From the NCBI GenBank assembly GCA_020438845.1, contig JAGQTV010000102.1, forward strand, positions 83,705-147,704: a stretch of 64,000 nt of DNA, in the 5' to 3' direction. Shown here piece after piece: positions 3,996 through 53,324 of this stretch. Both the position numbers and the translations under genes were made by a program. Origin of the DNA: Mycobacterium sp. GTDB lineage: Bacteria; Actinomycetota; Actinomycetes; Mycobacteriales; Mycobacteriaceae. The first letter of the stretch is position 1. Every line of letters starts with the position of its first letter. The notes beneath the pieces are model-generated. The model was given only the letters and a program-made list of their open reading frames with translations. It had not been told where the DNA came from and did no database searches.

Positions 3996-4125
3996 TCGGC
4001 CCGAGCCCTAATCCCGTAAAGTCGCCTGGACATATCGGGGCGGAAACCGGATCGGTAGGCCCCGCGCTGTCGCCGCCCACCGCAGTCCAGAAAATGGGCG
4101 TTTACCGAGGGCCGTGGGGGACCTG

Positions 4126-4398: not shown

Positions 4399-4478
4399 AT
4401 CACAAGTTTAGGCACATCAGACGCTCAGAGAGCGTACGTAGCCTGGAGCGCCGAGAAGGCCGTGTGAGAGGAGTGACT

Positions 4479-37079: not shown

Positions 37080-40000
37080 TTACCCCACGTTCTTGTCATC
37101 GCCGGGCAGTGGCGGGTCGAGTATCGGTTTGCCGTATCGGTAGCCCTGCACCCAGTCGTAGCCGAGGGAGAGCAGTGCCTGCTCCTGCTCCGCGGTCTCG
37201 ACGCCCTCGGCGATCATTCGCATCCCGAGGTCAGAGACCAGCTGGATCGCCCAGCGAGCGACGACCTCCTCGCCGGGATTGCCGTGCAGCCGATCGACAA
37301 ACGTGCGATCCAACTTGACCGCGTCGGCCGGCAGGTTCTGCAGATAGGCCAGCGAGGAGTAGCCGGTTCCGAAGTCGTCGATGGCTACCTTCACCCCGAG
37401 TGAGCGAAGTGCGATCAACAACTGCCTCAGACGGCCGGATTCCCCGACCACCGCTGACTCGGTCAACTCGATGGTCAGGCGCTCTGGGGGGATCGCGTAG
37501 CGCTCGATCAGTTCGGCGAGGTCGCTGATGTACCGCGCGTCGAGCGTCTTGGCACTGACGTTGATCGCCAGGTGGAACTCCCGGCTACGGTCGCGCAGCA
37601 GTTCTGCGCAGCGCGCGACAGCGCGCTCGGCGATCTGCCGATCGAGCTGGCGGATCTGACCCGTCTCCTCGGCGAGCTGGACGAACTCGGTGGGCGCAAA
37701 GGCGCCGGTGTCGGGTTGGCGCCAGCGGGCCAGCGCCTCGGCGCCGATGATCTGGCCGGTTCGCAGGGAGATGACGGGTTGGAACGCTGGAATCAGCTGA
37801 TCGTTCTCCAGCGCCCGATAGAGCTCCTGTTCGAGTTTCAGCCGCTGGACCGCCTGGCGTGAGAAGTCGTCCTCGTAGATCGCGACACGTGACCCGCCGG
37901 CACGTTTGGCCGAGTACATGGCCAGGTCGCCGCGTCGGAGCAGGTCGTCGGCTGCGACGGCATCGGTGTCGCCATCCTCATTGATGACGGCGCCGACGCT
38001 GAAGTGCACCACATGCGTGGAGCCGCCCAAGGTCAACGGATCCCGGAACGCTGTCACGATCGCCTCGGCGAGCCGCAAAACCAGATCGGGGGTGACATCG
38101 CGCAGGAGCACGACGAACTCGTCGCCGCCGAGGCGGAACACGGTGCCGGACCGTGCGACGTGTTCGGAGGTCACTGCCTCGAGCCGCTTGGCGGCGCTCT
38201 GCAGCACCAGGTCGCCCTGGGCGTGTCCGAATGCGTCGTTGAGCTGTTTGAAGCGATCGAGGTCGAGGAACAGCAGGCTGCGTTTTGTTACGGCAGCGTG
38301 CCGAGCCGATCCGGATCGCGTCTCGTTGTCGATCGTCATCGACAGGGCGCGGCGGTTGCCCAGCCCGGTGAGGGGATCGATGGTCGCCTCGAAAGCGAGC
38401 TGCCGGTAGGAGTACTCGAGCTGGCCGGACTGCACCGCCTGGTAGAGCCCCTCGGCCGCGGTTCGATCGTTGTCGGACCATGGGCGGCTGCGGCTGTCCA
38501 GGTGACCGGCCGCGGTCAAGGGCCGGCGGAACCAGGCCAGGTAGTCCGGAGTGCCAGGCAGCCGGGCCACGATGGCCCCCGCGGTATCGGAGGTGGCCAG
38601 TTCGGGCATGTCGGCGGCCAGGCAGTCGGTCACCTGCACCAGACTCGGCCCGGCTGAACTCAGTTCACGCACCTGCCGGTCGAGGGTGTCCTGGTCGGGC
38701 GTATCCCCGAGGCGGTATACCTTGCGGCCCATCCGAACCACCAGCCCGTCGGCCTGCACTGCCGTCAAGGCGTCGGCGCCGAGGGCTTGGATGCATTGGA
38801 TGGGGTCGGCGCCGACGGTGAGGTTCCGCCGGAGTTCCTCGGTCAGCGCCGTCAGTCGCTCGATGATCTTGTAGGCCGTGATGTCATGCGCGACAATGGT
38901 CAGTCGGTTTTGGTCCAGTTTGGACGGTCCTTCCTGACGCAGCACGGTGAGGCTTACTTCACGCTGATGCCCGCCTTCTTCCGTGAGCGTCGATTCACCG
39001 GACCACATTCCATCCCGCAACGCGGTGGGCACTGCCACCTCCCGCAGCTGGTCGAGAGCAACACTGTCGAACAGCGATCCAATAGTGCTCGGCAGAGGAT
39101 CGTGATCGGAGAGACCCAACAAGCCCCGCCAGGCTCGGTTGAGGTGTTGCAGGCCTCCGCCTAGTCCGAAAATCGCGACGAAGTCTGGAGTATTTTCGAC
39201 GATCTGCATGAACCCCGACAGCGATTTGTTCCTGGAACGCAGATCGGCGGTCATCTGAAGGGCGATTTCTTCACGGGCCAGGACTTCGAGTCGCTCGCGA
39301 GACCTGTTGCTCCGCTGCCTCAACTTGACGACCCAGTAGCTCAGGGCCGCTATCACGCAAGACACCACAACGCTGACCGCCCCGATGCTTCTGACTACGC
39401 GCGTGCTGTCAGGCGTGGCCGTGACAGCGACCTGCCACGTCGAACCCGGCACGGAAAACTCCTTGGTGGCGACGTACTGGCCCGGCGCCTCCGGCGAACC
39501 GAAGACGTCGACGACATCACCTGAGGGCGAGCGAGAGCGGATGTACACGTCGGCCTTCAGCGCCGCCGCCGTGGCAGGGTCAGCCACAGTGCTGTAGTCA
39601 AGCAAGGCACTGGACAACCCCCAGTAGGTTCCATCCTCGAGGAAGACGGGGGTTCGGTAGACGAAGGCCCGCCCACCCTGAACCAGGTTGATCGGACCGG
39701 TCAGGACCGATTTCCCGGCGGCGATTTGATCTTTGATGGGGTCCCACTGTGCCGGGGTTGCAGCGAGGTCCAGTCCGATGGCGGCCTCATTGCCCTTCAG
39801 CGGCCACACCGCTTCGATCACGTTGCCGGGGGCGATGCTGAGCGATTTGAGGGAACGTCCCTCCTCGGTGCTTTGGTTCAGCAGTTGCAGTGCGAAGGTC
39901 CTTAAGTCGTCAGGGATGGGTCGACCTTGCTTGGCGACTATCTGGGCGCGCACTGCGTCGGCTGGCCCGGTGACCGCCCCCAGCGCCATCTGGACAGTGT

Positions 40001-40160
40001 TGGCGAGCGTACCGGCCGCCTCCACAGCCCTGGCGTCGGCGGCAGCTTCCTCGGCTTTTACTGCATAGAGTCCAACGATTCCGCCGACCGTCAACCCCAG
40101 CAACAGCACCCCAGCGGCGACAAGCCAGCGACGCGCCCCGGGGGAAAGGAGGCGTCGCAT
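37080..40160 (-). CDS. CHASE-PAS-GGDEF-EAL c-di-GMP signalling protein
   Basis: A 1,026-residue membrane protein. TM1 is at about 13-35, an extracytoplasmic CHASE-like sensor at 40-255, TM2 at about 265-285, a PAS domain near 305-425, a GAF-like stretch 440-600, GGDEF (about 610-770) with the intact R-L-G-G-D-E-F, and EAL (about 785-1,020) with G-A-E-A-L-A-R-W, I-N-V-S, E-L-T-E-S, D-D-F-G-T-G-Y-S-S-L, K-L-D and A-E-G-V-E-T. Both the diguanylate cyclase and phosphodiesterase motifs are complete, so it could make and degrade c-di-GMP in response to an external ligand. It is monocistronic. Confidence 0.92.
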   Translation of the reverse strand: MRRLLSPGARRWLVAAGVLLLGLTVGGIVGLYAVKAEEAAADARAVEAAGTLANTVQMALGAVTGPADAVRAQIVAKQGRPIPDDLRTFALQLLNQSTEEGRSLKSLSIAPGNVIEAVWPLKGNEAAIGLDLAATPAQWDPIKDQIAAGKSVLTGPINLVQGGRAFVYRTPVFLEDGTYWGLSSALLDYSTVADPATAAALKADVYIRSRSPSGDVVDVFGSPEAPGQYVATKEFSVPGSTWQVAVTATPDSTRVVRSIGAVSVVVSCVIAALSYWVVKLRQRSNRSRERLEVLAREEIALQMTADLRSRNKSLSGFMQIVENTPDFVAIFGLGGGLQHLNRAWRGLLGLSDHDPLPSTIGSLFDSVALDQLREVAVPTALRDGMWSGESTLTEEGGHQREVSLTVLRQEGPSKLDQNRLTIVAHDITAYKIIERLTALTEELRRNLTVGADPIQCIQALGADALTAVQADGLVVRMGRKVYRLGDTPDQDTLDRQVRELSSAGPSLVQVTDCLAADMPELATSDTAGAIVARLPGTPDYLAWFRRPLTAAGHLDSRSRPWSDNDRTAAEGLYQAVQSGQLEYSYRQLAFEATIDPLTGLGNRRALSMTIDNETRSGSARHAAVTKRSLLFLDLDRFKQLNDAFGHAQGDLVLQSAAKRLEAVTSEHVARSGTVFRLGGDEFVVLLRDVTPDLVLRLAEAIVTAFRDPLTLGGSTHVVHFSVGAVINEDGDTDAVAADDLLRRGDLAMYSAKRAGGSRVAIYEDDFSRQAVQRLKLEQELYRALENDQLIPAFQPVISLRTGQIIGAEALARWRQPDTGAFAPTEFVQLAEETGQIRQLDRQIAERAVARCAELLRDRSREFHLAINVSAKTLDARYISDLAELIERYAIPPERLTIELTESAVVGESGRLRQLLIALRSLGVKVAIDDFGTGYSSLAYLQNLPADAVKLDRTFVDRLHGNPGEEVVARWAIQLVSDLGMRMIAEGVETAEQEQALLSLGYDWVQGYRYGKPILDPPLPGDDKNVG

Positions 40161-40357
40161 TGGCCCAAGATAAGCCTGATGCCGCGATCTGATGGGGGCT
40201 TGCCCACAAATCTACCCACAATCGACACCGAGTGACGGGATGGCATCGCGATGGCCTTTGCGTAACGTGATTCAGCACGCCGCCACCGTCAACCACGTCC
40301 TACCCGATCGGGCCTATTCTGGAGTTGGTTGACCCTTCAGTGTCCAGGGGGACAAGC

Positions 40358-40648
40358 ATGGTGAATCTTTCACTCGCCGGCCGGCGATTCGTCGTTGGTG
40401 CTTTGCTTGCGGCGATTGCGGCAGTGCCGGCCGTCGCGGTTCTTGCCGACGGCTCTCCGCCGCCGCGGGTGCTGGCCGACTGCAACGACATCGTCGATAC
40501 GACCGACAGCTTTTCGATGAACTGTGTGCCTACCGTCATCCCCGATGTCAGCGACCAACTGACTGAGGAAGAGGTAGCGCAACCCGGCTGGGGAGCAACG
40601 CCGGGCGGTGGCGGCGGACAAGGACCCGGGGGCGGACCGCACCGCTAG
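40358..40648 (+). CDS. Small secreted hypothetical protein
   Basis: A 96-residue product from ATG 40,358, preceded by GGGGGAC. The signal peptide spans about 1-31 (core A-L-L-A-A-I-A-A-V-P-A-V-A-V). The mature part has two cysteines (D-C-N and N-C-V) and a Gly-rich tail. No family recognised. Its stop overlaps the stop of the convergent lipoprotein gene. Confidence 0.7.
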   Translation: MVNLSLAGRRFVVGALLAAIAAVPAVAVLADGSPPPRVLADCNDIVDTTDSFSMNCVPTVIPDVSDQLTEEEVAQPGWGATPGGGGGQGPGGGPHR

Positions 40649-41232
40649 CCGGGGCGCAGGTCGGTATCGAGGATCGCTTTCGCGCGATGCAGATGGTCGA
40701 CCGCCCGGGACAGGTAGTCCTGATAGTTGGCCGCGTCCGCGTGCTGCCGTCCGATGATGAACCTCAGGCAGGCACGCGTTGCCACGTTGATGTCGTCGAT
40801 CATCCTCTGCAATTCAGCGGTCAGCCCCTTGTCGGGGGTTGGCAGATGCTGCTGCAGCCCGATGATGTTGGTGTCGTGCAGTTGCTCACATCCCGAGCGC
40901 ACCGCCGCCTCGTCGCCTGTTTCGGACCCGTCCCAAATATGTTGCAGCGCTTGAGCGGATTCCTTGAAGTGGTTGCGCGCACCAGCTTCCCATTCCCGCA
41001 TGGCGGCGTCGGTTGACGGGGTTGTGGGCGCGGACGGCGTGGTGAGCCCGACGGCCGGCGCTGACTGACTCGGGGCGGCCCGCTCAGAGGGGTGTCCGCA
41101 ACCCGACAGCAACGGCGCCAGCCCCGCCAGCAACGAAGCCAGCCCCGCCAGCAACGAAGCCAGCCGAGCGCCGAACACCAGCGATTCGGTGCACCGCCTC
41201 CTCACAGTTCCCCACACTGCGACCGATCGCAT
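40645..41232 (-). CDS. Putative lipoprotein with repeat-containing signal peptide
   Basis: A 195-residue product. The N-terminus has Arg residues, then a hydrophobic stretch built from a 21-bp tandem repeat (A-S-L-L-A-G-L twice, then A-P-L-L-S-G-C) ending in lipobox L-L-S-G-C. The mature part has a Ser/Thr/Pro linker and a helical domain (about 80-190) with D-D-I-N-V-A-T-R-A-C. Membrane-anchored lipoprotein of unknown function. A start at GTG further in is possible because the first 20 residues are long for a signal. Confidence 0.75.
   Translation of the reverse strand: MRSVAVWGTVRRRCTESLVFGARLASLLAGLASLLAGLAPLLSGCGHPSERAAPSQSAPAVGLTTPSAPTTPSTDAAMREWEAGARNHFKESAQALQHIWDGSETGDEAAVRSGCEQLHDTNIIGLQQHLPTPDKGLTAELQRMIDDINVATRACLRFIIGRQHADAANYQDYLSRAVDHLHRAKAILDTDLRPG
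41118..41159. repeat. 21-bp tandem repeat in lipoprotein signal peptide
   Basis: Two perfect 21-bp copies (41,118-41,138 and 41,139-41,159) plus a partial unit encode the heptad A-S-L-L-A-G-L in the hydrophobic core of the signal peptide. Copy number changes would alter the core length in seven-residue steps. Confidence 0.8.
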
Positions 41233-41242
41233 CGGTTGAACA

Positions 41243-41256
41243 GGGTCTTTAGGCCC
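41243..41256 (+). promoter_or_regulatory. Possible DosR box between lipoprotein and WS/DGAT genes
   Basis: GGGTCTTTAGGCCC matches the palindromic core of the DosR motif (GGGACTWWAGTCCC) at 12 of 14 positions. It lies 125 bp upstream of the WS/DGAT start and 11 bp upstream of the divergent lipoprotein start. Triacylglycerol synthase genes such as tgs1 are DosR targets in M. tuberculosis. Confidence 0.35.
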
Positions 41257-41380
41257 GAGTGGTGACCTGGCCGCCGTGAGCAGCGCAGCGTGATTATTCC
41301 CTCAAAGCCTCGCGATGCGGCGTGCGACCCGCTTCAATTGAGAACATTGAGAACAGGAAACATCGAAGACAGGGACATCA

Positions 41381-42913
41381 ATGGAACTGATATCACCGGT
41401 TGATTCGATGTTCCTGCTTGCGGAGTCGCGCGAGCACCCCATGCATGTCGGTGGTCTGCAATTGTTCGAGCCCCCCGCGGGCGTCGGGCCCGACTACGTG
41501 CGCAACATGTACCTCGACCTGATCCACCGGGACGACGTCTCCCTGACCTTCCGTAAGCACCCCTCCGAGCTGTTCGGCGGGATCGCCAATCTTGCATGGG
41601 CCTTCGATCATGAGATCGACTTGGAGTACCACATGCGGCGCTCGGCGCTGCCCTCACCGGGCCGCGTACGTGAGCTGCTGGAACTCACCTCACGGATGCA
41701 CGGCACGCTGCTGGACCGGCACCGTCCGCTATGGGAGTCCCATCTGATCGAAGGCCTCACCGATGGCCGTTTCGCGGTCTACACCAAGATTCATCACGCG
41801 CTCGTCGACGGTGTCAGCGCGATGCGGTTGATGCGCCGGTCGTTGTCCACCGATCCCGAGGACAGCGAGGTGCGGGTGCCGTGGGGCACCAACAAGAGAC
41901 AGTCCAGCCGGGTCCCCCGGGGAGTGGCGCAGGGTGTCTCACTTCTGGGTGGACTCGCGAAAGCCGCAGGCTCGGTGGTCGAGCTCGGGCCTTCGACGTA
42001 CACGCTGGCGCGCCGCGGGCTGCTGGAGCAGCAGTTGACCCTGCCGTTCGGAGCACCGCGGACGATGTTCAACGTGCCGATCGGCGGCGCACGACGGGTG
42101 GCTGCCCAGTCCTGGCCGATGGCCAGGGTCATGGCCATCAAGAAGGCTGCCGGGGTCACGGTCAACGATGTGGTGCTGGCCATGTGCGGGGGCGCGTTGC
42201 GAGCCTATCTGCTCGAGCAGAACGCGCTTCCGGACCGGCCTCTGATCGCGATGGTGCCGGTGAGTTTGCGTGACGATGACTCCAGTGGCGGTAACCAGGT
42301 GGGAGCGTTACTGGCGGATCTGGCTACCCATCTTCCGGATCCGGCCAAGCGACTGGAGGCGGTCAGCGCGTCCATGCGCAGCAACAAGCAGTTGTTCAGC
42401 CAGCTGCCGAAGTTGCAGCAGTTGGCGTTGTCGGCCTTCAACGTTTCGCCGCTACTGCTGAGCATGGTGGCACCGGCTCTCGGTTCGGCGGCACCACCGT
42501 TCAACTTGGTGATCTCCAACGTGCCGGGAACGCGGGAACCCTTGTACTGGAATGGCTCTCGGCTGAACGGCAATTATCCGTTGTCGATCGCCCTGGACGG
42601 CCAGGCGATGAACATCACGCTGACCAACAATGCCGACAACCTCGATTTCGGCCTGGTCGGGTGCCGGCGCAGTGTGCCGAGCCTGCAACGGCTGCTGGGC
42701 CATCTCGAGGACTCGCTGACCGACCTCGAGCGCGCAGTGGGGGCCCCGGTGAATAAGGCCGGCAGCGCCAAGAGGGCCCCAGTGAAGAAGGCTCCAGTGA
42801 AGAAGGCTCCAGTGAAGAAGGCTCCTGCAAAAAAGGCTCCCGCGAAGAAAGCGGCGGCCCCCAGTGAGAGGACCGCCGCTTCCGCGAACAGTGAAGAACC
42901 AGCTTCCCGCTAG
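41381..42913 (+). CDS. Wax ester synthase/diacylglycerol acyltransferase (WS/DGAT)
   Basis: A 510-residue acyltransferase. The catalytic H-H-A-L-V-D-G motif is at 138-144, and the P-L-W-E-S and N-D-V-V-L-A motifs of the family are present. It should esterify diacylglycerol or long-chain alcohol with acyl-CoA, building storage lipid at the membrane. Residues about 457-510 form an extra tail of P-V-K-K-A/P-A-K-K-A repeats ending in a Ser/Ala-rich segment, not part of the enzyme core. It overlaps the lpqH-like gene tail-to-tail by 4 bp. Confidence 0.9.
   Translation: MELISPVDSMFLLAESREHPMHVGGLQLFEPPAGVGPDYVRNMYLDLIHRDDVSLTFRKHPSELFGGIANLAWAFDHEIDLEYHMRRSALPSPGRVRELLELTSRMHGTLLDRHRPLWESHLIEGLTDGRFAVYTKIHHALVDGVSAMRLMRRSLSTDPEDSEVRVPWGTNKRQSSRVPRGVAQGVSLLGGLAKAAGSVVELGPSTYTLARRGLLEQQLTLPFGAPRTMFNVPIGGARRVAAQSWPMARVMAIKKAAGVTVNDVVLAMCGGALRAYLLEQNALPDRPLIAMVPVSLRDDDSSGGNQVGALLADLATHLPDPAKRLEAVSASMRSNKQLFSQLPKLQQLALSAFNVSPLLLSMVAPALGSAAPPFNLVISNVPGTREPLYWNGSRLNGNYPLSIALDGQAMNITLTNNADNLDFGLVGCRRSVPSLQRLLGHLEDSLTDLERAVGAPVNKAGSAKRAPVKKAPVKKAPVKKAPAKKAPAKKAAAPSERTAASANSEEPASR
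42779..42855 (+). repeat. 15-bp tandem repeats encoding Lys/Ala/Pro tail
   Basis: Five units of 15 bp (consensus CCAGTGAAGAAGGCT) encode P-V-K-K-A or P-A-K-K-A. The first three are perfect copies, the last two diverge. The resulting tail resembles the basic repeats of mycobacterial HupB in composition. Confidence 0.88.
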
Positions 42914-43410
42914 GGGCAGGTGACGCTGATCTCGAACGGCTTGGTCATCGGCTGCATCGGGTTGGCCATGTCAACGCCGGTGGCAGTGCCCTTGATCGTG
43001 TAGGTCTTTCCGTCCTTGGTTGCCGACGCCTCGCCGCCCGGCGCACCCTCTTGGAAGCCCAGTGCCACGCCGTTGACGTTGCCCAAGCCCACCGAGTTCA
43101 CCTTGGAGCCGTCTTCGGCCATCATGACGCCGATGCCGGTGGTCGGGTTTCCGATGGCGATGTTGAAGTTGTCGCCGACCGTCGAGCACACCACCTGGCC
43201 GTCGACGTCCTGAGGCGCACCGTCGATGGTGACCTTGGCGGTACCCGAACCCGCCGATGCAGTCACCGAGCCCGAGGTCATCGACGCCGACGCAGTAGCC
43301 GAAGGCTTGCTCGATTCGCTCGCCTTCTCCTCCTTCTTGCTGGAGCAGCCGGACAGACCAGCCACCACGATCGCGGCACCGCATACGGCAACCGTCACAC
43401 CACGCACCAC
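42910..43410 (-). CDS. lpqH: LpqH-like 19 kDa lipoprotein antigen
   Basis: A 166-residue lipoprotein from GTG 43,410, with AAGGAG six bases upstream. Lipobox L-S-G-C is followed by S-S-K-K-E-E-K, a Ser/Ala/Thr-rich linker (residues 30-58) and a beta-rich LpqH domain with V-V-C-S-T...T-I-K-G-T-A-T-G-V-D. The two cysteines C74 and C165 fit the family's disulfide. LpqH is a surface TLR2 agonist; the linker is the usual O-glycosylation zone. Whether this is the orthologue of Rv3763 or a paralogue cannot be decided here. Confidence 0.88.
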   Translation of the reverse strand: MVRGVTVAVCGAAIVVAGLSGCSSKKEEKASESSKPSATASASMTSGSVTASAGSGTAKVTIDGAPQDVDGQVVCSTVGDNFNIAIGNPTTGIGVMMAEDGSKVNSVGLGNVNGVALGFQEGAPGGEASATKDGKTYTIKGTATGVDMANPMQPMTKPFEISVTCP

Positions 43411-43532
43411 AGTTTTCTCCTTCTGTTTGCTACGGCCGGAACGGGCCGCCGCGGACCATTATCTGCCGAATACGGGCGGAAAGGGAATGCCCTTTGCGCT
43501 GTTGGTCCAGCCACCGGGTATCGCTTGGTTAG

Positions 43533-44777
<1,245 letters not shown>

Positions 44778-44797
44778 GAGGGCATGAGAGGGCACGG

Positions 44798-44848
44798 GGA
44801 AAAACCGAAAAATTGAAGGATCGAAAGCCGCAGCCTCTGTGGTCCTTC
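44798..44848 (-). terminator. Intrinsic terminator of the reverse transcriptase operon
   Basis: On the minus strand GAAGGA (44,848-44,843) and TCCTTC (44,820-44,815) enclose an inner CCACAG/CTGCGG-type stem (44,842-44,828). The hairpin is followed by AATTTTTCGGTTTTT (to about 44,799). A second small hairpin (CCGCAT-GA-ATGCGG, 44,858-44,871) lies between it and the RT stop. The 10-bp unit GGGCATGAGA is repeated next to the tgt stop at 44,771-44,790. Confidence 0.7.
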
Positions 44849-44912
44849 GCGAAACAGCCGCATGAATGCGGGGTCCGCGCCCTCGAAGACTATCGAACCG
44901 CACCCGTACCGG

Positions 44913-46262
44913 TCACCGCAAGTTCTTCAGGTGGACCAGGGAGACAAGACCCATCTGTCGGTGCAGCACAGCGGGCGGCAGGAGCCGGAAGCCCCGCACA
45001 CCGGGGCGGCCGGTTGCGGCCTGAGCGATCTTGCGGGCGATTCGGTAATCCATATCCTTGAGGACGCCCCGATCGGTGGTGGTGTCGAGTAAAGCCGGCA
45101 AGCCTGGAACCGCAAAGGGATTGGTGACGTCGAGCATGACGTTGGTCATCGCCACCAACTGTCGGGCCCGGTCTGCCACCGGTAAGCGGGCCAGGGCTGG
45201 TGTGGCCCCGTCGATCCGAGCTGTGATGCGATCCAGAAAGCGCCGCAGCCGGTGCGGGCCTACCGTGATGGCACCGGCGTGGTTCACCGACAACCCCAGG
45301 TAGTCGATCCGGTTGGTTCCTCGATAAGCGGGGTCCGCCTCGGCAGACCTGCCCGTCGCGCTCAGGGTGCTGCGAACTTCCTTTGCGGCCTTGCGTTTCA
45401 CGCCGAGTTCATCGACCAGCGAGTCGATGCGGGCATCGGTTTCCCGCAGTGCGTCGAGGTCGGGGTGAGCCAGCAGGAAATCGTCGTTGTACCGGGCGTA
45501 GAAGATGCCGTCGGTGGCCAGGATCGAATTGTCCATCGGGATGACCGCAAGATTCGCCAGTACGGGCACCATGGGGGTTCCCATGGCGACACCGCGCAAA
45601 CGGGTGAACTGGGTGCCGTCGGAATCGGTGACCACTGGGCGGGCCAGGCCAGTGATCAGATTCCAGGTGGTCTCCGAGGGTTCTCCGGTTGGGCTTCCCA
45701 GCCCGGCAACCTCGCGTAGCAGTGGCCAAAGTGGGGCATCGGGGCCCATCGGGAGGTTGTCGCCGTAGTGCTCGAAGTCGGACTGCAGGACATACAGCGG
45801 CGGCCCTTTGGGGCCCACCCGATCACGATGCGCTCGGATGAACGCGCCCAGGCCGCGCAATGCTCCGACGTTGGTCATCGCGGGCAGGTAGGAGTAGACG
45901 CCGGGCAGGCCGCGGGATCGCGCATTGCGGGTCAGAAGCTGGTACAGCGCCGACCCGACCACGTGGTCGGCGAAGACAGGCATGTGGGCGCAACGTTGTT
46001 TACCCTTTGTCTCCAGCACCCAGAGGTCGACTGGTTCCGGCGTATAGCGGCCGTCGGCCACGGCGCGGGCGATGGCCCGGGCCAGCCCGTGGCGGTTGGC
46101 GGCGGTGTCGAAATAGGTGACATCGGGGCCGGCGGTGGCATAGCCCTGACCACGTTGGCTCCGTTTGGCGAAAATCTTGAGGATGACGTCCTCATAGGCT
46201 TTCGGGTCGGCGAGGCTTCGGTCGATGTCGATGGGCGTGGGGCGCTGGACGTGGTCAGCCAT
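44913..46262 (-). CDS. Reverse transcriptase domain protein, unclassified
   Basis: A 449-residue protein. The RT core runs from about residue 85 to 345: fingers motif K-G-K-Q-R...A-D-H-V-V-G-S-A (86-105), motif A Q-S-D-F-E-H-Y with Asp162, motif B G-V-A-M-G-T-P-M-V-P-V-L-A-N-L (224-238), motif C Y-N-D-D with Asp260/Asp261 and thumb-proximal Y-L-G-L-S-V (321-326). All catalytic Asp are present; the usual Y-A-D-D is Y-N-D-D. No maturase or endonuclease domain follows, only about 100 helical residues. The ATG overlaps the membrane protein stop by 8 bp, and a terminator follows. GC content and codon use match the neighbours. Retron, DGR or DRT membership cannot be shown. Confidence 0.88.
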   Translation of the reverse strand: MADHVQRPTPIDIDRSLADPKAYEDVILKIFAKRSQRGQGYATAGPDVTYFDTAANRHGLARAIARAVADGRYTPEPVDLWVLETKGKQRCAHMPVFADHVVGSALYQLLTRNARSRGLPGVYSYLPAMTNVGALRGLGAFIRAHRDRVGPKGPPLYVLQSDFEHYGDNLPMGPDAPLWPLLREVAGLGSPTGEPSETTWNLITGLARPVVTDSDGTQFTRLRGVAMGTPMVPVLANLAVIPMDNSILATDGIFYARYNDDFLLAHPDLDALRETDARIDSLVDELGVKRKAAKEVRSTLSATGRSAEADPAYRGTNRIDYLGLSVNHAGAITVGPHRLRRFLDRITARIDGATPALARLPVADRARQLVAMTNVMLDVTNPFAVPGLPALLDTTTDRGVLKDMDYRIARKIAQAATGRPGVRGFRLLPPAVLHRQMGLVSLVHLKNLR

Positions 46263-48237
46263 CGGCTGCGCACCCGGCTTTCACGATGCGTCGCCAGGCC
46301 CGGAGTTGCTCGACTTCGGGCTCCGGTGGCAGCACGAACAGCAGTCGCAGCGTTCCCCGGCAGAACACCGGCGTGATGCGGCGACCGTCCAGGGGTACCT
46401 GGTCGGCTCCGTCCTCGAGGCTGGCCATCGCGGTGGGCAGGGCTCTGGCCAAGATGTTGTGTTCCACACCGCGCATGTTCTGGGCGCCGTCGAGTGTCTC
46501 GGTGTCGAAAGCGATCCCGTCGGCGAACAGCCGTCGGAATTGTGCGGTAAGGGCCTGCGGCGAATGCGGCTTACCCTCGTCCGGCGGGGTGGACGACCGC
46601 AGACTCATCGTGCCGCCGGTGGCGGTCTGGAGTGCAAGATGAGCGCTGGGCGCGCCGTCGACGGGCACGCGCTCGTAGAAGACCAGAGCCGTGGCTGAAC
46701 GGAACGCAAAATAACCCTTTCCGCCGAAGGTATCTCGCATCAGGGCCAGCACCGCCGACCGCTGTTTGCTGGTGATCGCTTGGGGAATGGCGCCGGTTCC
46801 CACTATGACCGGACCAGGTTCTGCTGCCAGTGCCTGCCGCCATTCGCCGTAACTCAACAGGGTGGGCAGCGGCGCGTCGCGGCGGTCCTGCAGGTGCTGC
46901 AGATTGATCAAGACGATGAGTTGGAGGAGCATTGCGGCGGTGATTTCGATCAGATCTGAGGCCGGATTCGGCTTCACCCACACCAGCCAGAGCAACGCAA
47001 TCAGCAGCAGGAAGGTAGCGATGTGGGCGCCGAATCGTCCCTCGGCAAAGAGGCGGATCTGGTATATGCCGATCACGCTGCGAACGACGAACAACGGGAT
47101 CAAGGCGAGCAGGAAACTGATCGGCACACCGTGCAGCAGGAAGCGGGCCAAGGCGAAGGCCAGCAGCCAGTAGAACAACGCGATGACCGGGGCCACCCAC
47201 AGCAGGGTGTGAAAGAAGCGGATCGCAAGCGGGCGAATGGCGGGTGCATTGCGTAGTCGAACGAAGTCGAAGTAGAAGATCCCGGCGCTCTCATAGGTGC
47301 CGCGGAACAGCGGCATGATCAGGTAGAAGAACTGGAACGCATTGATGTGCCGCCAAGCCGCCGACGCGGCGGTGAGGTCGAAGGTGCGGGTGTTGGTTCC
47401 GTAGAAGCCGACGAGCGCCAAAACAAGTACAGCGTCGAGACGCAGGCTCAGGCCCGACAGGGTCGTCTCCAGGCCGAGCATGGGCGGGATTTTCGGGAAC
47501 CGGCTCCAGAAGCCCCGATCGGCAAGACGTGGACGGATTCCCGTTAGGCGGTAGGCCTCCAGGCAGAAGTGCACGGTGATCCAGATGCTGATCGCGTTCG
47601 ACGCGATGATCGCGATGATGATCGCGGCGGCGGGGTAGTAGAAGAATCCAGCGCCGATCACTGCCAGTTGCACGAGGGTCGGCACGAACATCGACCAGGT
47701 GGGCTTGTGCACCCGCCGGGTCGCGTAGATGCCCGAATGCAACACCCGGACGGGCAACCCGATTGCGAGTTCGACGATGATCAGGAACGCGTAAAAGCGC
47801 CCGACCGGAGCCTCGCCGGCCAGGCTCGCTTTGTGCAGGACGAGTCCGCCGACGATCGTCGCGAGGAGAGCCGCAACTGCGCCGAGGAGGAACCAGCGGC
47901 CGATTTCGAGTTCGGCGGCGTCGCGTTCCCCGGACTTGGCGAAAGCCCGCAGGCGGTCTCGCATCACTTCCAGGAGTCCCCACCAACCGCCGGCCACGAT
48001 CAGGCTGCCGGCGCGAAGCACCATCACCGTGAAAGTCGCCACGCCGCCCAGCGCGGAAAGCAGAATGAAGAATTCCGCGACGTGTACGGCAAACCGGACC
48101 GTCGAAACCAGGAAGGGGAATCGCAATCGGTAGCGGAAATAGGCGAATAACCGGCCGGTGAGGAAGCTGGAGTACAGCGACACGACACGGTCCTGCTGGC
48201 CCGCGGTGCGCTCGAACCAGCGGTCGACTTCGTTCAC
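46255..48237 (-). CDS. Flippase-like polytopic membrane protein coupled to reverse transcriptase
   Basis: A 660-residue protein from GTG 48,237; the frame extends to 48,333 but that would overlap the divergent RNase T2 gene. The first about 460 residues contain 12-14 hydrophobic helices arranged like polysaccharide or lipid flippases (Wzx/MurJ/MATE type), with charged loops such as R-D-R-L-R-A-F-A-K-S-G. The last about 200 residues are a soluble domain with G-P-V-I-V-G-T-G-A-I-P, G-G-K-G-Y-F-A-F-R-S-A and C-R-G-T-L-R-L-L-F-V-L-P, which I do not recognise. It is coupled by an 8-bp overlap to the RT gene. Promoter most likely in 48,238-48,314. Confidence 0.8.
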   Translation of the reverse strand: MNEVDRWFERTAGQQDRVVSLYSSFLTGRLFAYFRYRLRFPFLVSTVRFAVHVAEFFILLSALGGVATFTVMVLRAGSLIVAGGWWGLLEVMRDRLRAFAKSGERDAAELEIGRWFLLGAVAALLATIVGGLVLHKASLAGEAPVGRFYAFLIIVELAIGLPVRVLHSGIYATRRVHKPTWSMFVPTLVQLAVIGAGFFYYPAAAIIIAIIASNAISIWITVHFCLEAYRLTGIRPRLADRGFWSRFPKIPPMLGLETTLSGLSLRLDAVLVLALVGFYGTNTRTFDLTAASAAWRHINAFQFFYLIMPLFRGTYESAGIFYFDFVRLRNAPAIRPLAIRFFHTLLWVAPVIALFYWLLAFALARFLLHGVPISFLLALIPLFVVRSVIGIYQIRLFAEGRFGAHIATFLLLIALLWLVWVKPNPASDLIEITAAMLLQLIVLINLQHLQDRRDAPLPTLLSYGEWRQALAAEPGPVIVGTGAIPQAITSKQRSAVLALMRDTFGGKGYFAFRSATALVFYERVPVDGAPSAHLALQTATGGTMSLRSSTPPDEGKPHSPQALTAQFRRLFADGIAFDTETLDGAQNMRGVEHNILARALPTAMASLEDGADQVPLDGRRITPVFCRGTLRLLFVLPPEPEVEQLRAWRRIVKAGCAADG

Positions 48238-48314
48238 GTTCCGGCCTGGCTCGATCCTGGTGGGTGTCTCGGTGGTGGACGTCGGGGCCCGTTGGCTGTT
48301 GAATAGAGTGCGCC

Positions 48315-49064
48315 ATGAAGCGGCGTGATGCAAAGGTATTAGCCATATCGGCCGGACTTTCGGTGGTCGTCGTCGCCGCCATCGTCTACAGCTTCATAAT
48401 CGATCGACGGCCGGAGGGGCCGGCGCCGGGGAGCAGTTCGTCGAGTTGGTTGACGATGACCTGGGGGCCGAGCCTCTGCATGGTGGAAGCCAAGAACGCA
48501 GGGTGCAAATCCGGTCATGTCGGCAAGATGGGACAGTCCCTCGTGCTGCACGGGCTGTGGCCGCAACCGTCGACGGAGCAGTACTGCGGCGTGCCTGTGC
48601 GCGGTGCGGACCGACGGTCGGTCGATTTGCCGGATGGGGTTCGAAATACGTTGCAGGACATGATGTCCGACGAAACCACGATGGCTCCGCACGAATGGTA
48701 CGCACACGGCACCTGCTCGGGAGTGACACCACCGGAGTACTTCGGCGTCGCCACCACCCTTGCGACGCAGGTGCGCTCGCTTCTGGACCCGGTTTTCGTG
48801 AATGCGAAAGGAGACCAGTTGTCACCCCGCGCCCTGCAGGAGAGCCTCGACGCCGCGTTCGGCGGCAGGGCAGGCAATAGAATTGGCCTGACCTGCCGCG
48901 ACGTCGACGGTCAGTCGATTGTCTACGAGATCCACCTGTCGCTCCCCTCCGTCGTCGACCTTCTCGCCGACCAAAAGGCCGACAACACGCTCGCACTCGG
49001 CGACTCGCTGGCGAAGGGCCCCGAGATTCCTCCCGGTTGCGGACAAGGTCGGGTGCCGGGATGA
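48315..49064 (+). CDS. RNase T2 family ribonuclease, membrane-anchored or secreted
   Basis: A 249-residue protein with an N-terminal hydrophobic helix (10-28), uncleaved or signal. RNase T2 sites: CAS-I V-L-H-G-L-W-P with His79, and CAS-II H-E-W-Y-A-H-G-T-C with His126, Glu127 and His131. The lysine normally between W and H in CAS-II is Ala130 here, which may lower activity. Six or more cysteines fit disulfide bonding outside the cytoplasm. It should cleave RNA to 2',3'-cyclic phosphates in the envelope or medium. It is divergent from the RT/membrane protein operon, 77 bp between starts, and 28 bp before the P450 gene. Confidence 0.85.
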   Translation: MKRRDAKVLAISAGLSVVVVAAIVYSFIIDRRPEGPAPGSSSSSWLTMTWGPSLCMVEAKNAGCKSGHVGKMGQSLVLHGLWPQPSTEQYCGVPVRGADRRSVDLPDGVRNTLQDMMSDETTMAPHEWYAHGTCSGVTPPEYFGVATTLATQVRSLLDPVFVNAKGDQLSPRALQESLDAAFGGRAGNRIGLTCRDVDGQSIVYEIHLSLPSVVDLLADQKADNTLALGDSLAKGPEIPPGCGQGRVPG

Positions 49065-49092
49065 CGGTTCCGGGGATGACGGGGGTTAGCGG

Positions 49093-50298
49093 ATGACACA
49101 GGCGCTGCTGGTGCAACTGCTCGAACCGGCCAACCGGGCGAACCCCTACCCGGTGTACGACCGACTTCGGGAAAGCGGCCCGCTACTGTTGCCGGAATCC
49201 AATCTCGTTGTGTTCTCGTCTTTTTCGGATTGCGAAAAGGTCTTGCGCAACCCGGCTTCGTGCAGCGACCGAATGAAGTCGACCTCGGCCCAACGATTGC
49301 TGGCCGCCGGCGAGAATCCTCGGCCCCTGGGTACGCCGGGCTTCCTGTTCCTCGACCCCCCGGACCACACTCGGTTGCGTCGCCTGGTCAGCAAGGCCTT
49401 CTCGCCCAGGGTGGTCAAGGCTCTCGAACCCGATATCGCGGATCTGGTCGACGGGCTGTTGGACGCAGTGGCCGAGAAGGGTCAGTTCGACGCAGTCCCG
49501 GACCTGGCCTACCCGCTCCCAGTCGCGGTGATCTGTCGACTGCTCGGCGTACCGCTGGACGACGAACCCGAATTCAGCAGGGCCTCGGGGCTGCTGGCCC
49601 AGGGCCTGGATCCTTTCATTGCATTCACCGGCGAAACACAGGGCTTCGATGAGCGACTGGAGGCCGGACTCTGGTTGCGGGCCTATCTTCGGGACCTGTT
49701 GCAACAGCGTCGTGCGCACCCCGCCGACGACCTGATGTCGGCGCTGATCGCTGTTGAGGAGTCCGGAGACCAGCTCACCGAAGATGAGATCGTTGCGACG
49801 TGCAACCTGCTGCTCATCGCGGGTCACGAGACGACGGTGAATCTCATCGCCAACGCGGTGTTGGCCATGTTGCGCAACCGCCAGTACTGGACCGCATTGG
49901 CAGACGACTCGGAGCGGGCCAGCGGGATCGTTGAGGAGACACTGCGTCTCGATCCGCCGGTGCAATTGGTCGGGCGGGTCGCCGGTGAGGACATGACAGT
50001 CGGCGACACTGACATCCCCAAAGGGGACAACATGATGCTGCTGCTGGCAGCCGCCCACCGCGACCCCGCGGTGGTCGACCGGCCGGGCGAATTCGACCCC
50101 ACTCGGCCCTCGATCCGCCACCTCGCTTTCGGTCTGGGGGCGCACTTCTGTCTGGGCTCCCCGCTGGCCCGACTGGAGGCTGCGGTTGCGCTGTCGGCGG
50201 TAACCAAACGGTTCTCCGGCGCGCAGCTGGCGGCAGAACCGGTCTACAAGCCGCACGTCACGCTACGCGGCATGGCCAGCCTGGAAGTCTCCCTCTAG
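49093..50298 (+). CDS. Cytochrome P450
   Basis: A 401-residue soluble P450. The heme thiolate is Cys353 in F-G-L-G-A-H-F-C-L-G, the I-helix oxygen motif A-G-H-E-T is at 243-247, and the K-helix E-E-T-L-R is at 281-285. Length and motifs are those of class I bacterial P450s that need ferredoxin and reductase, neither of which is encoded here. Substrate unknown. It overlaps gluQRS tail-to-tail by 4 bp and may be cotranscribed with the RNase T2 gene. Confidence 0.92.
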   Translation: MTQALLVQLLEPANRANPYPVYDRLRESGPLLLPESNLVVFSSFSDCEKVLRNPASCSDRMKSTSAQRLLAAGENPRPLGTPGFLFLDPPDHTRLRRLVSKAFSPRVVKALEPDIADLVDGLLDAVAEKGQFDAVPDLAYPLPVAVICRLLGVPLDDEPEFSRASGLLAQGLDPFIAFTGETQGFDERLEAGLWLRAYLRDLLQQRRAHPADDLMSALIAVEESGDQLTEDEIVATCNLLLIAGHETTVNLIANAVLAMLRNRQYWTALADDSERASGIVEETLRLDPPVQLVGRVAGEDMTVGDTDIPKGDNMMLLLAAAHRDPAVVDRPGEFDPTRPSIRHLAFGLGAHFCLGSPLARLEAAVALSAVTKRFSGAQLAAEPVYKPHVTLRGMASLEVSL

Positions 50299-51209
50299 AC
50301 GGACTCGCGGAAGATCCACGGCGAGCGTGGAAGCCGTGCCGGGTCGAACTGATCGAGCAACTCAGCCATGTTCGCCGCCGGGCAGCCCAGCGATTCCGTG
50401 ATCAAGGCGAACGCTCGTTGCGCTCCCAGTTCCGCGAGCGTCACCGCACCGTCCCGCTTGGCCAGTCGTTTGCCGTCGGCGTTGAGCGCCAGCGGAACGT
50501 GGGCGTACACCGGTTGCGGATGGCCGAGCAGAGCAGCCAGATAGGCCTGCCGGGGGGAGGACGCCAGCAGGTCGTCGCCGCGTACCACCTGGTCGACTCC
50601 CGAGGCGGCGTCGTCCACCACCACCGCCAGGTTGTAGGCCGCGACGCCGTCGCCGCGCCGGAGCACGAAGTCGTCCACCACCCCGGTGAACTCACCGTGC
50701 AGCAGGTCGGTCACCGTGAAGTGATCGACGCCCGCGCGCAGGCGCAATGCGGGTGACCGGCCCGCCGCCCGCTTGTCCGCGAGTTGGGCGGCGTGAAGCT
50801 CTCGGCAGGTGCCCGGATAGGCCCCTTCCGGGGCGTGCGGGGCTCGCGGTGCGTTGAGGATTTCCCTTCTGCTGCAGAAGCATTCGTAGACCAGCCCGTT
50901 CCGGGCCAGATCGTCGACGACGGTGTCGTAGTGGTCGGGGTGAGTCGACTGCCACTGTGGCTCCTCGTCCCAGGTGACTCCCATGGCGGCGAGGTCGGCC
51001 AACTGGCGCTCGGCGATGTCGTCATGGGTGCGGTCGTCAAGGTCCTCGACGCGGATCAGAAAGCGCCGACCCGTCGAACGGGCGAACAGCCAGGCCAGCA
51101 CGGCGGTGCGCAGGTTGCCGATGTGTAAGTCGGCCGACGGACTGGGCGCGAACCGGCCGGCCCCGGAGTTGGTGTGCCCGGAGTTGGTGTGCCCGGAGTT
51201 GGTGTGCAT
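50295..51209 (-). CDS. gluQRS: Glutamyl-queuosine tRNA-Asp synthetase
   Basis: A 304-residue truncated GluRS-like enzyme from ATG 51,209. H-I-G-N (29-32) is the HIGH-type motif in A-P-S-P-S-A-D-L-H-I-G-N, a zinc site is formed by Cys110, Cys112, Tyr131 and Cys135, and K-R-L-A-K-R-D-G is the KMSKS counterpart. The anticodon-binding domain is absent, as expected. It activates glutamate and attaches it to queuosine-34 of tRNA-Asp. The N-terminus has three H-T-N-S-G repeats from a 15-bp tandem repeat. It diverges from ligC with 28 bp between starts. Confidence 0.88.
   Translation of the reverse strand: MHTNSGHTNSGHTNSGAGRFAPSPSADLHIGNLRTAVLAWLFARSTGRRFLIRVEDLDDRTHDDIAERQLADLAAMGVTWDEEPQWQSTHPDHYDTVVDDLARNGLVYECFCSRREILNAPRAPHAPEGAYPGTCRELHAAQLADKRAAGRSPALRLRAGVDHFTVTDLLHGEFTGVVDDFVLRRGDGVAAYNLAVVVDDAASGVDQVVRGDDLLASSPRQAYLAALLGHPQPVYAHVPLALNADGKRLAKRDGAVTLAELGAQRAFALITESLGCPAANMAELLDQFDPARLPRSPWIFRESV
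51164..51207. repeat. 15-bp tandem repeat at the gluQRS start
   Basis: Three copies of CGGAGTTGGTGTGCC encode the H-T-N-S-G repeats directly after the initiator Met of GluQRS. The array lies 30 bp from the divergent ligC start. Confidence 0.88.
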
Positions 51210-51237
51210 CGCCGTCGAATGTACGACGATTGGTTCC

Positions 51238-52272
51238 GTGGACCTGCCCGTCGCACCTCCGGTGGAGCCGATGCTGGCCAAAGCGCAGGCGAAAGTTCCG
51301 TCCGAACCGGGAGTCTGGTCCTACGAACCGAAGTGGGACGGCTTCCGTGCTGTGGTGTTCCGCGACGGCGACGAGGTCGTCATGCAGTCGCGCAACGGCA
51401 AGGAGCTCGGCCGCTACTTCCCCGAACTGATCACTGCTCTGCGTGACGAACTGGCGCCGCGGTGCGTGCTGGACGGAGAGGTTGTGGTGCCCCGGGAGAT
51501 CGACGGTCGGGTGCGGCTGGACTGGGACTCCCTCTCGGGGCGTATCCACCCGGCAGAGAGTCGGGTGCGGATGCTTGCCGAACAGACACCCGCACACTTC
51601 ATCGGGTTCGACGCTCTGGCGGTCGGGGACCGGTCGCTGATGGCGGAGCCGTTTCGGGTGCGTAGGTCGGCGCTGACAGAGTCGGTTGGCGAAGGCGACT
51701 GGTGTCACGTCACCCGCACCACCGAGGATCCGGGGTTGGCGACCGGTTGGTTCGAGACCTTCGAGGGTGCGGGCCTCGACGGCGTGGTTGCCAAGCGGCT
51801 CGCGGGTCTCTACCTGCCGGGCAAACGGGAGATGGTGAAGGTCAAGCACGCGCGCGACGCGGACTGCGTCGTGATGGGCTACCGCATCCACAAGAGCGGT
51901 GTCGGTCTGGGCTCGCTGCTGCTCGGGCTGTATCGCGGCGACGGTGACATCGAGATGGTCGGTGGAGCGGCGTCCTTCAGCACCAGGGATCGGATCGCCC
52001 TACTGGCTGAACTGGAGCCGTTGCGCATCGGCGAGGGCATCGTCAACGACGGCGAACCCAGTAGGTGGAACGCGGCGGCCGACAAGCGGTGGATCCCGGT
52101 CCGCCGGGAGAGGGTTGCGCAGGTGGCCTACGACCAAATGGAGGGCAGTCGCTTCCGGCACACGGTGCGATTCCTGCGCTGGCGTCCGGACCGTGAACCG
52201 CGAAGCTGCACCTTCGACCAACTCGATGTTCCCGTGGACTACGACCTCTACGACGTCCTGGAGACCCGCTGA
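51238..52272 (+). CDS. ligC: ATP-dependent DNA ligase LigC
   Basis: A 344-residue ligase from GTG 51,238, giving the expected V-D-L-P-V-x-P-P start. The nucleotidyl lysine is Lys32 in E-P-K-W-D-G-F-R. Motifs III (F-I-G-F-D-A-L), IV (L-D-G-V-V-A-K-R) and V (M-V-K-V-K-H) are present, followed by an OB-fold (about 215-340). It seals nicks using ATP and in mycobacteria can support NHEJ/back-up repair with its neighbouring polymerase. Its TGA overlaps the polymerase ATG by one base. Confidence 0.92.
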   Translation: MDLPVAPPVEPMLAKAQAKVPSEPGVWSYEPKWDGFRAVVFRDGDEVVMQSRNGKELGRYFPELITALRDELAPRCVLDGEVVVPREIDGRVRLDWDSLSGRIHPAESRVRMLAEQTPAHFIGFDALAVGDRSLMAEPFRVRRSALTESVGEGDWCHVTRTTEDPGLATGWFETFEGAGLDGVVAKRLAGLYLPGKREMVKVKHARDADCVVMGYRIHKSGVGLGSLLLGLYRGDGDIEMVGGAASFSTRDRIALLAELEPLRIGEGIVNDGEPSRWNAAADKRWIPVRRERVAQVAYDQMEGSRFRHTVRFLRWRPDREPRSCTFDQLDVPVDYDLYDVLETR

Positions 52273-53324
52273 TGCCCTCGAACACGCCAGCTGAGGAGAT
52301 CGACGTCGACGGTGTCGCGGTCCGGGTCACCAACCGCGACAAGGTGTACTTCCCGCTGCTCGGTTCAGGAGGAACCAAGGGCGCGCTGATCGACTACTAC
52401 CGCACGGTGGCGTGTCGAGGCGAGCTGCTGACCGCGCTGCGGGACCGGCCGACGCACCTGCAACGCTTCCCCGATGGCATCGACGGAGAGCAGATCTTCC
52501 AGAAGCGTGTCCCGGAAAAACACCCCGACTACCTCAAGACTTGTCGGGTGACCTTCCCCTCCGGTCGCACCGCTGACGCGCTGATGGTGACCCATCCGTC
52601 AGCGGTTGTCTGGGCAGCTCAAATGGGCACCATAACGTTGCACCCGTGGCAGGTCCGGTGCCCCGACACAGACCATCCCGACGAACTGCGGATTGACCTC
52701 GACCCGCAACCGGGCACCGGCTTCGCCGAGGCCCGGACTGTGGCGGTGGACATCCTGAAACCGCTGCTCGACGAACTCGGTTTGGTCGGCTACCCCAAGA
52801 CCTCCGGCGGCCGCGGAGTGCACGTGTTCCTGCGGATCAGGACCGACTGGGACTTCGTTGCCGTCCGCCGCGCGGGAATCGCGCTGGCGCGGGAGGCGGA
52901 GCGAAGGGCACCGGACCTGGTGACGACGTCCTGGTGGAAGGAGGAGCGTGGCGAGAAGATCTTCATCGACTTCAATCAGAACGCACGGGACCGCACGTTT
53001 GCCGCCGCCTACTCGGTTCGGCCCACTCCGATCGCGACGGTATCGACGCCGTTGACGTGGGCTGAACTTGCCAATGCCGTAAGCCCGGATGACTACACCA
53101 TTGCGACCGTGCCCGCGCTGGTGGCCCGGCGCGGTGATCCGATGGCCGCGATGGACGCACTGGCACAGACGATCGAACCACTGCTGGCGATGGCCGCCGC
53201 TGACGCCGACCGCGGGCTGGGAGACCTGCCCTATCCGCCTAACTATCCGAAGATGCCCGGCGAACCCAAGCGGGTGCAACCAAGCCGAAATGCCGACCTG
53301 AACAGGAAAAACAAGTCGAAGTAG
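52272..53324 (+). CDS. LigD-like primase-polymerase (stand-alone PolDom)
   Basis: A 350-residue archaeo-eukaryotic primase-type polymerase, matching Rv3730c beside ligC. The metal ligands are Asp142 and Asp144 in I-D-L-D-P, with a third Asp in F-I-D-F-N-Q-N, and K-T-S-G-G-R-G-V-H-V-F binds the nucleotide. Stand-alone PolD proteins add ribo- or deoxynucleotides in gap filling and end-joining repair. It is coupled to ligC. The last 36 bp before its divergent tail (53,252-53,287) recur exactly at 54,225-54,260. Confidence 0.9.
   Translation: MPSNTPAEEIDVDGVAVRVTNRDKVYFPLLGSGGTKGALIDYYRTVACRGELLTALRDRPTHLQRFPDGIDGEQIFQKRVPEKHPDYLKTCRVTFPSGRTADALMVTHPSAVVWAAQMGTITLHPWQVRCPDTDHPDELRIDLDPQPGTGFAEARTVAVDILKPLLDELGLVGYPKTSGGRGVHVFLRIRTDWDFVAVRRAGIALAREAERRAPDLVTTSWWKEERGEKIFIDFNQNARDRTFAAAYSVRPTPIATVSTPLTWAELANAVSPDDYTIATVPALVARRGDPMAAMDALAQTIEPLLAMAAADADRGLGDLPYPPNYPKMPGEPKRVQPSRNADLNRKNKSK
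53252..53287 (+). repeat. 36-bp perfect repeat, left copy (polymerase gene 3' end)
   Basis: It encodes M-P-G-E-P-K-R-V-Q-P-S-R in the polymerase C-terminus. It is identical to 54,225-54,260, 973 bp downstream, in the same orientation. Confidence 0.9.

Follow-up and report, generated by a model that had tools for sequence, protein, structure and literature searches.

What does a mycobacterium do with a reverse transcriptase (RT) whose gene overlaps that of a membrane protein (MP)? The question is raised by a stretch of 64,000 nt from Mycobacterium sp. (GCA_020438845.1, contig JAGQTV010000102.1, positions 83,705-147,704 of the forward strand), hereafter called the window. A first-pass annotation had described a two-gene unit, in which an RT of 449 residues is coupled by an 8-bp overlap to an MP of 660 residues, and had suggested an immunity-type role. 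Here, we found that the unit is larger: an RNase T2 gene divergent from the MP gene and a predicted structured RNA element directly 3' of the RT gene, both missed in that annotation, go together with the two genes, the helices of the element covary and the catalytic residues of the RT are intact. A two-gene operon without RNA is hence ruled out by the conserved RNase T2 gene and the conserved covarying element. Taken as a whole, we hold with about even confidence that the RNase T2, MP and RT genes, together with a predicted structured RNA that would have a promoter of its own, are the four parts of one module, which would work in analogy to the DRT9 and DRT10 defence systems by copying a U-rich A-B-A' template repeatedly into A-rich repeat DNA that controls the MP.

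A scan of genome contigs yielded 41 related loci, 38 of them actinobacterial, mostly from Mycobacterium, and three from Rhizobiaceae. By title, 30 belong to Mycobacterium, Mycolicibacterium or Mycobacteriaceae, seven just to actinobacteria, three to Rhizobiaceae and one to Bifidobacterium breve, the latter being perhaps a mislabelled metagenome bin. The RNA element lies directly 3' of the RT gene in all 41 loci, the MP gene adjoins the RT gene in 40 (the exception is a contig starting inside the RT gene), and in 38 the MP gene has an RNase T2 gene next to it on the opposite strand, the remaining three contigs ending earlier. The gaps in MP and RNase T2 arise because contigs end inside the MP or RT gene, and an RT homologue lacking the membrane gene was seen in no locus with enough DNA. 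When all open reading frames (ORFs) were compared, the RT family was found in 41, the MP in 39 and the RNase in 38 loci, and no other ORF family in more than 14 (shared-family counts were listed for eight of the 41 loci). In the window, the MP gene comes first and the RT gene second, both on the minus strand. The overlap noted in the first-pass annotation recurs in all 38 loci with both ORFs complete, measuring 8 bp in 21 and 11-38 bp in 17 of them, lengths that depend on the start codon picked by our script; the gap between RNase T2 and MP genes ranges from 19 to 671 bp in the other loci listed.

Among 148 genomes of the genus (the window genome and 147 others), the close RT family occurs in 17, MP and RNA element occur in the same 17, and the RNase T2 occurs in 19, namely the 17 module carriers and two more. 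The tie between RT and membrane gene proposed in the first-pass annotation thus holds across loci and genomes. One of the two additional genomes (G106, L103) carries the RNase T2 gene between a tRNA-guanine transglycosylase (TGT) gene and a P450 gene, which is also the site of the module in the window, and no MP, RT or RNA match was found in 9.7 kb of DNA around it, which is probably a partial loss of the module; in the other (G098, L104), no MP, RT or RNA accompanies the RNase T2 in the DNA examined around the gene. Pairwise distances in 35 of the 41 loci correlate between RT and MP (0.87), RT and RNase (0.77) and MP and RNase (0.87), which could be explained by common descent alone. Further afield, the close RT family and the MP were each found in two of 396 genomes of the phylum, and in the order around a Rhizobiaceae carrier (297 genomes) the close family occurs only in that carrier itself. 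No match was found in IMG/VR or phage records; plasmids gave one match at E 1e-5, a record annotated as CRISPR cas1 (26% identity), and just distant RTs at E 10 among the 60 of 344 records listed. GC content resembles the surroundings, as the first-pass annotation had stated (window 0.649, RT 0.654, MP 0.639, RNase 0.637). Where shown, the database names among the best 120 of 316 RT clusters (E <=1e-5) are 'hypothetical protein', 'reverse transcriptase domain-containing protein' and 'Retron-type reverse transcriptase'. The alignments behind our results contain, in addition to the window, 30 of the 41 loci (A1 and A2), 21 loci (A3) or 35 loci (A4); A5 has 27 rows, and A6 is A4 without the three Rhizobiaceae.

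Table 1 Features of the module in the window (positions within the 64,000 nt; paired strands of helices are separated by a slash).
Feature	Position	Strand	Basis or remark
Reverse transcriptase ORF	44913..46262	(-)	449 aa; ORF call
Membrane protein ORF	46255..48237	(-)	660 aa; ORF call
MP core	residues 19-456	(-)	predicted MOP-superfamily fold
MP C-terminal domain	46255..46869	(-)	~residues 457-660; predicted cytosolic; fold searches of the whole-MP model covered 19-456
Intergenic stretch between RNase T2 and MP genes	48238..48314	(.)	77 bp
RNase T2 gene	48315..49064	(+)	249 aa; divergent from MP
Predicted structured RNA, ~97 nt	44788..44884	(-)	alignment of 36 copies
P1	44884-44875 / 44797-44788	(-)	
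P2	44871-44867 / 44862-44858	(-)	
P3	44848-44842 / 44821-44815	(-)	
P4	44837-44833 / 44828-44824	(-)	
Single-stranded U-rich segment, predicted template	44798..44814	(-)	A-B-A' repeat UUUUUC-GG-UUUUUC
-10-like hexamer TTCGAT	44892..44897	(-)	predicted RNA promoter
-35-like hexamer TTGCGG	44916..44921	(-)	spacer 18; inside last RT codons

The RNA alignment consists of the window and 35 loci, with L025, L027, L033, L051, L059 and L060 omitted as near-copies, and the resulting model matches the window at 44778-44893. In the predicted fold of the element, P1 is an outer stem that encloses hairpin P2, hairpin P3/P4 (loop ACAGAGGYTG) and, 3' of the latter, a U-rich single strand; the single-sequence fold gave a z of -2.37. 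Across the 36 rows, 94.8% of cells are paired. Both-side changes affect 11 of the 27 pairs (6.6 on average in shuffles, 1 of 500 of which attained this number) and 66 cells (21.3 on average, 0 of 500), while structures slid along the alignment gave at most five pairs and at most 15 cells with such changes. Both controls carry some bias, since the shuffles take no account of relatedness and the structure was derived from the very rows on which it was assessed. Prediction across phyla is a stronger test: a model built from the 33 actinobacterial rows, window included, recovered the element from each of the three Rhizobiaceae loci in the same position (59-62 bits, E ~1e-12). Rfam holds no family for the element, the sole match up to E 5 in 44700-48400 being STnc450 at E 0.6 inside the RT gene.

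The first-pass annotation had taken a hairpin with two T-tracts to close the unit; the hairpin is present, but it was misread, being part of the covarying element. An elaborate terminator or 3'-untranslated element of the RT message would share some of these features, as P3 followed by a U-run is terminator-like and the element always lies 3' of the RT. The RT would in that case make DNA without the element, either untemplated like Abi-type RTs or on other RNAs. We consider this unlikely, given that the 3' strand of P1 sits beyond the U-run and covaries (five of the ten P1 pairs change on both sides), that the P3/P4 loop is near-invariant across two phyla and that a promoter-like site precedes the element. 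This site (TTG[CT]NN, a spacer of mostly 17-18 and T[A/T]NNNT) was found before 32 of the 36 RNA copies, while mononucleotide shuffles gave a mean of 0.32 and a maximum of 3 in 1000. Its -35 hexamer falls inside the last RT codons in 20 loci, where the RNA is near the RT stop; in 11 loci with a wider gap it is intergenic, its distance to the RNA being unchanged (one locus is undecided). Because the distance to the RNA is kept when the gap between RT and RNA grows, the promoter-like site follows the RNA and not the RT stop. At 44913-44942 of the window, the C-terminal codons of the RT also hold the -35-like hexamer, so that coding and promoter constraints overlap.

Which part of such an RNA might an RT copy? 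The single-stranded segment that separates P3 from the 3' strand of P1 contains two U-runs, and we predict a template role for it. The A-B-A' arrangement of the window has counterparts elsewhere (UUUUUGC-CG-UUUUUGC in L056 and UUUG-CUC-UUUG in Rhizobiaceae), and the summed longest direct repeat of the 26 distinct segments among the 36 rows amounts to 139, compared to 93.6 (standard deviation 4.0) in shuffled segments (0 of 2000; the rows are related). The U-runs are split by other bases in 24 of the 26. An RT with a linked structured RNA in two phyla might also be a selfish retroelement that propagates by copying its own RNA, and genome G018 does contain a second, degenerate copy of the RNA (L109:8109-8222, G018:C46, 41 bits, with matching flanks on both sides). 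We regard this explanation as highly improbable. A single RNA match per genome was found in 16 of the 17 carriers, no direct repeat of at least 30 nt besides a 15-nt coding tandem was found in 40000-53000, and MP and RNase T2 would be left unexplained. Since the second G018 copy comes with flanking DNA from both sides, it represents a decayed segmental duplication; retroposition of the RNA was excluded on the same ground.

The RT that would copy this template has kept its catalytic residues. Its Asp162 in motif A and the YNDD motif at 258-261, both read correctly in the first-pass annotation, are identical in all 31 aligned RT rows (the window and 30 of the 41 loci), and its structure model (predicted local distance difference test score 89.8) aligns with solved RTs over residues 12-449. 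Pfam RVT_1 matches it weakly (27.9 bits, cut-off 29.6), and the window genome contains no other RVT_1 match. Position 441 is Ser in 30 rows and Thr in one, and Ser441 is by analogy a candidate priming residue; the last conserved Tyr is residue 313 of 449, and no conserved C-terminal Tyr was found in the 31 rows.

To which class does the RT belong? The Drt9 profile gives 49.2 bits, compared to 591.1 (L019) and 582.7 (L021) for two of the three DRT9 RTs in the genus, and although all 31 RT relatives match Drt9, they also match generic RT, Cas1_IIIb, UG4 and UG26 profiles. The UG17 profile gives 34.1 bits, compared to 439.1 for a true member (L110), and Drt3a gives 27.3 bits. NCBIfam retron_St85 reaches 30.5 bits at a cut-off of 235 and the group II RT/maturase profile TIGR04416 45.3 bits at a cut-off of 300; of the 25 best PADLOC profiles listed, none for a retron RT exceeds 25.1 bits. 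No group II intron RNA family of Rfam matches 44700-48400 up to E 5, and the repeat search in 40000-53000, in which gapped or strongly diverged copies might escape, revealed no template/variable repeat pair of a diversity-generating retroelement (DGR). Membership in Drt9, UG17, Drt2, Drt3a, retron St85 and group II was therefore excluded by score, and no PADLOC or NCBIfam family fits. The first-pass annotation, which saw none of the features that accompany characterised RT classes, was right about the classes tested but not about a partner RNA, which is visible. The nearest class is probably DRT9, which ranked first in a PDB profile search (E 2.4e-7) and in Foldseek with the RT model, and to which the lineage is sister (94/98, with a long-branch warning) in a tree of ten module RTs and 28 others picked by us from the loci at hand. 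Assignment to one single class by fold comparison was rejected, as Foldseek (DRT9) and VIA-align (DGR, GsI-IIC, G2L4) disagree. The three further RT matches in genomes of the same genus as the window (L019, L020 and L021 in G141, G116 and G082) are DRT9-type, two being confirmed by profile and L020, unscanned, being placed in the same tree clade.

The MP core is predicted from its model to have the 12-helix fold of the MOP superfamily (MATE/Wzx/MurJ), to which it corresponds at the level of fold. The MP has no match in Pfam, PADLOC or NCBIfam up to E 1, and no MOP sequence profile was found in Pfam for the window MP or among 31 relatives, nor in PDB up to E 10. Lys and Arg residues average 27.9 per protein in inner loops versus 2.6 in outer loops (set by hand on the model). 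The C-terminal 200 residues, unrecognised also in the first-pass annotation, are modelled as a mixed alpha/beta domain and are predicted to be cytosolic, which together with the missing match to Pfam or PDB chains sets the MP apart from MATE, WzxE and MurJ. This domain has no Pfam family in the window, five scattered single-member matches in 31 relatives (best E 0.005) and nothing better than E 0.36 among PDB sequences. A search restricted to proteins 0.55-1.75 times the MP length yielded 34 clusters with this domain, all of them proteins that measure 562-747 aa and lack Pfam domains, and as judged by sequence the domain appears to be private to the MP.

The third protein belongs to the RNase T2 family (PF00445, 52.7 bits, cut-off 26), as do E. 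coli RNase I and RNase MC1. His79, Glu127 and His131, which we take to be the catalytic residues, are invariant in 22 of 22 rows and align with RNase MC1. Unlike these two, it is tied to the module, which is present in 17 of the 19 genomes of the genus that encode the enzyme. Because of its N-terminal segment, hydrophobic as read by eye, and its family, the enzyme is likely anchored outside the inner membrane. An extracytoplasmic RNase, an MP with a predicted transporter fold and window neighbours that are not defence genes would also suit traffic of extracellular RNA or envelope components rather than phage defence: the RNase T2 would cut RNA outside, the MP would move the products or lipid-linked cargo, and the RT would use or record them. 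This seems improbable to us, as an RNA that belongs to the module and itself contains a template-like segment points to a fixed product, and the distribution is patchy (17 of 148). Moreover, transport of RNA is not known from the MOP superfamily.

How does the module compare with known systems? As described in PMC12483538, DRT9 (UG28) combines an RT with a poly-U RNA template and makes protein-primed poly-dA, the RNA lying upstream of the RT and conserved C-terminal tyrosines serving as primers. The module resembles it in its nearest RT by PDB profile, Foldseek and tree, in the U-rich template-like segment and in having a membrane partner, as some DRT9 systems have SLATT membrane partners. It differs in the low Drt9 score, the interrupted U-runs, the RNA 3' of the RT, the Ser/Thr at 441 kept instead of a conserved C-terminal Tyr, and in its MOP-type MP and RNase T2. 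For DRT10 (UG17), the description (PMC12632851) names an RNA, a SLATT protein and an RT; a serine near the C-terminus of the RT primes the synthesis of tandem-repeat cDNA, for which an A-B-A' segment located 3' of a stem-loop is the template. RNA, membrane protein and RT are shared with the module, as are the conserved C-terminal Ser (Ser/Thr in 31 of 31) and, as far as the sequence suggests, an A-B-A' segment just 3' of stem-loop P3. In contrast, the RT has a low UG17 score, neither Pfam nor PADLOC identifies the MP as SLATT and its predicted fold is of the MOP type, the RNA is 3' of the RT and not upstream of the membrane gene, and the RNase T2 is extra. In DRT3 (PMC13174585), an RNA downstream of an RT gene templates repeat cDNA; the module shares this RNA position but has one RT versus two and little similarity to Drt3a. 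Membrane partners are noted for DRT1, DRT3, DRT9 and DRT10, and control of membrane proteins by repeat DNA is a leading proposal in the DRT9 and DRT10 papers (PMC12483538, PMC12632851).

Following the DRT10 analogy, we suggest that DNA synthesis would be primed by the C-terminal hydroxyl of Ser441, with stem P3 as 5' edge of the template, and that re-annealing at A' would generate repeats, the window product being (CCGAAAAA)n. Such repeat DNA, made in the cytosol, may then bind the cytosolic domain of the MP, whose flippase-like core might thereby be opened, shut or retargeted, and the change might stop growth of the infected cell. The substrate of the RNase T2 would be RNA on the far side of the membrane. 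The patchy, multi-site distribution and defence genes beside three hand-picked loci speak for a defence role, and the immunity-type role named in the first-pass annotation is plausible. In L058, Wadjet genes stand beside the module at 119-5799, with part of JetA and a JetC (2100 bits) ending 10 bp from the RNase T2 gene; a GmrSD-type gene and an MzaB-like ATPase are close to the module in L048, and McrBC is close to it in L052. In five other hand-picked neighbourhoods (L031, L041, L053, L054 and L056), helicase, nuclease-helicase, deaminase, methyltransferase and kinase-like genes were found.

Several observations weigh against a DRT9/DRT10-like module. The DRT9 join in the tree is under star level, and the tree had no retron, DGR or G2L4 rows. 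A single-sequence PDB search ranks G2L4 first, VIA-align places DGR, GsI-IIC and G2L4 slightly above DRT9, and a profile of the module RTs gives one group II RT 48.8 bits versus 35.0-41.6 for DRT9 RTs. The RNA model has no match in the three DRT9 loci and the UG17 locus, and P3 with its U-run retains the look of a terminator. Of 24 segments, 19 have matching bases behind their two U-runs and five do not (L029 and L034, without two U-runs, were omitted), and co-change of these bases is only suggestive (Fisher p 0.078). The window's own neighbours are ordinary, non-defence genes, and the neighbour scans covered ten hand-picked proteins each. The weakest point of the model is the RNase T2, which outside the membrane is without a clear role.

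A more far-reaching reading is that the module may represent a new telomerase-like class of bacterial RT, with its own RNA 3' of the gene and serine-primed A-rich repeat DNA. A flippase with a MOP fold would read this DNA through its private domain and would be coupled to an RNase T2 across the membrane, making up an immune or signalling circuit that spans the envelope. We offer this as a tentative idea that is rather doubtful in its full extent. Since DRT10, an RT with template RNA and membrane partner is a known kind of system; this RT lineage, its RNA, a MOP partner and an RNase T2 are undescribed in the literature searched, which mostly excluded subscription papers and gave no description of this unit or of an RT accompanied by both an RNase T2 and a MOP-type fold. 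RNA-templated synthesis of repeat DNA is known for a few DRT classes. Here, an RT lineage outside the profiled classes comes with an RNA of ~97 nt and is locked to an MP having its own cytosolic domain; control of a membrane protein by repeat DNA thus becomes directly testable in one compact module.

The flanks of the module vary, a TGT gene being the neighbour in 13 of 41 loci. Flanking genes of the window module recur in loci titled Mycobacterium, in line with an origin from Mycobacterium in the broad sense. In the window, a TGT gene (43533-44777) and a short Glu/Gln-tRNA-synthetase-like gene (50295-51281), perhaps GluQ-RS, flank the module, and both may concern queuosine. The 15-nt tandem repeat (42770-42844) codes for a Lys/Ala/Pro-rich tail that ends ORF 41381-42913. 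Elsewhere in the phylum, in genome G228, an ORF of 570 aa (L067:916-2628) matches an RT profile over residues 16-288 (317 bits) and a Cas4d profile over residues 370-558 (171 bits), an apparent RT-Cas4 fusion.

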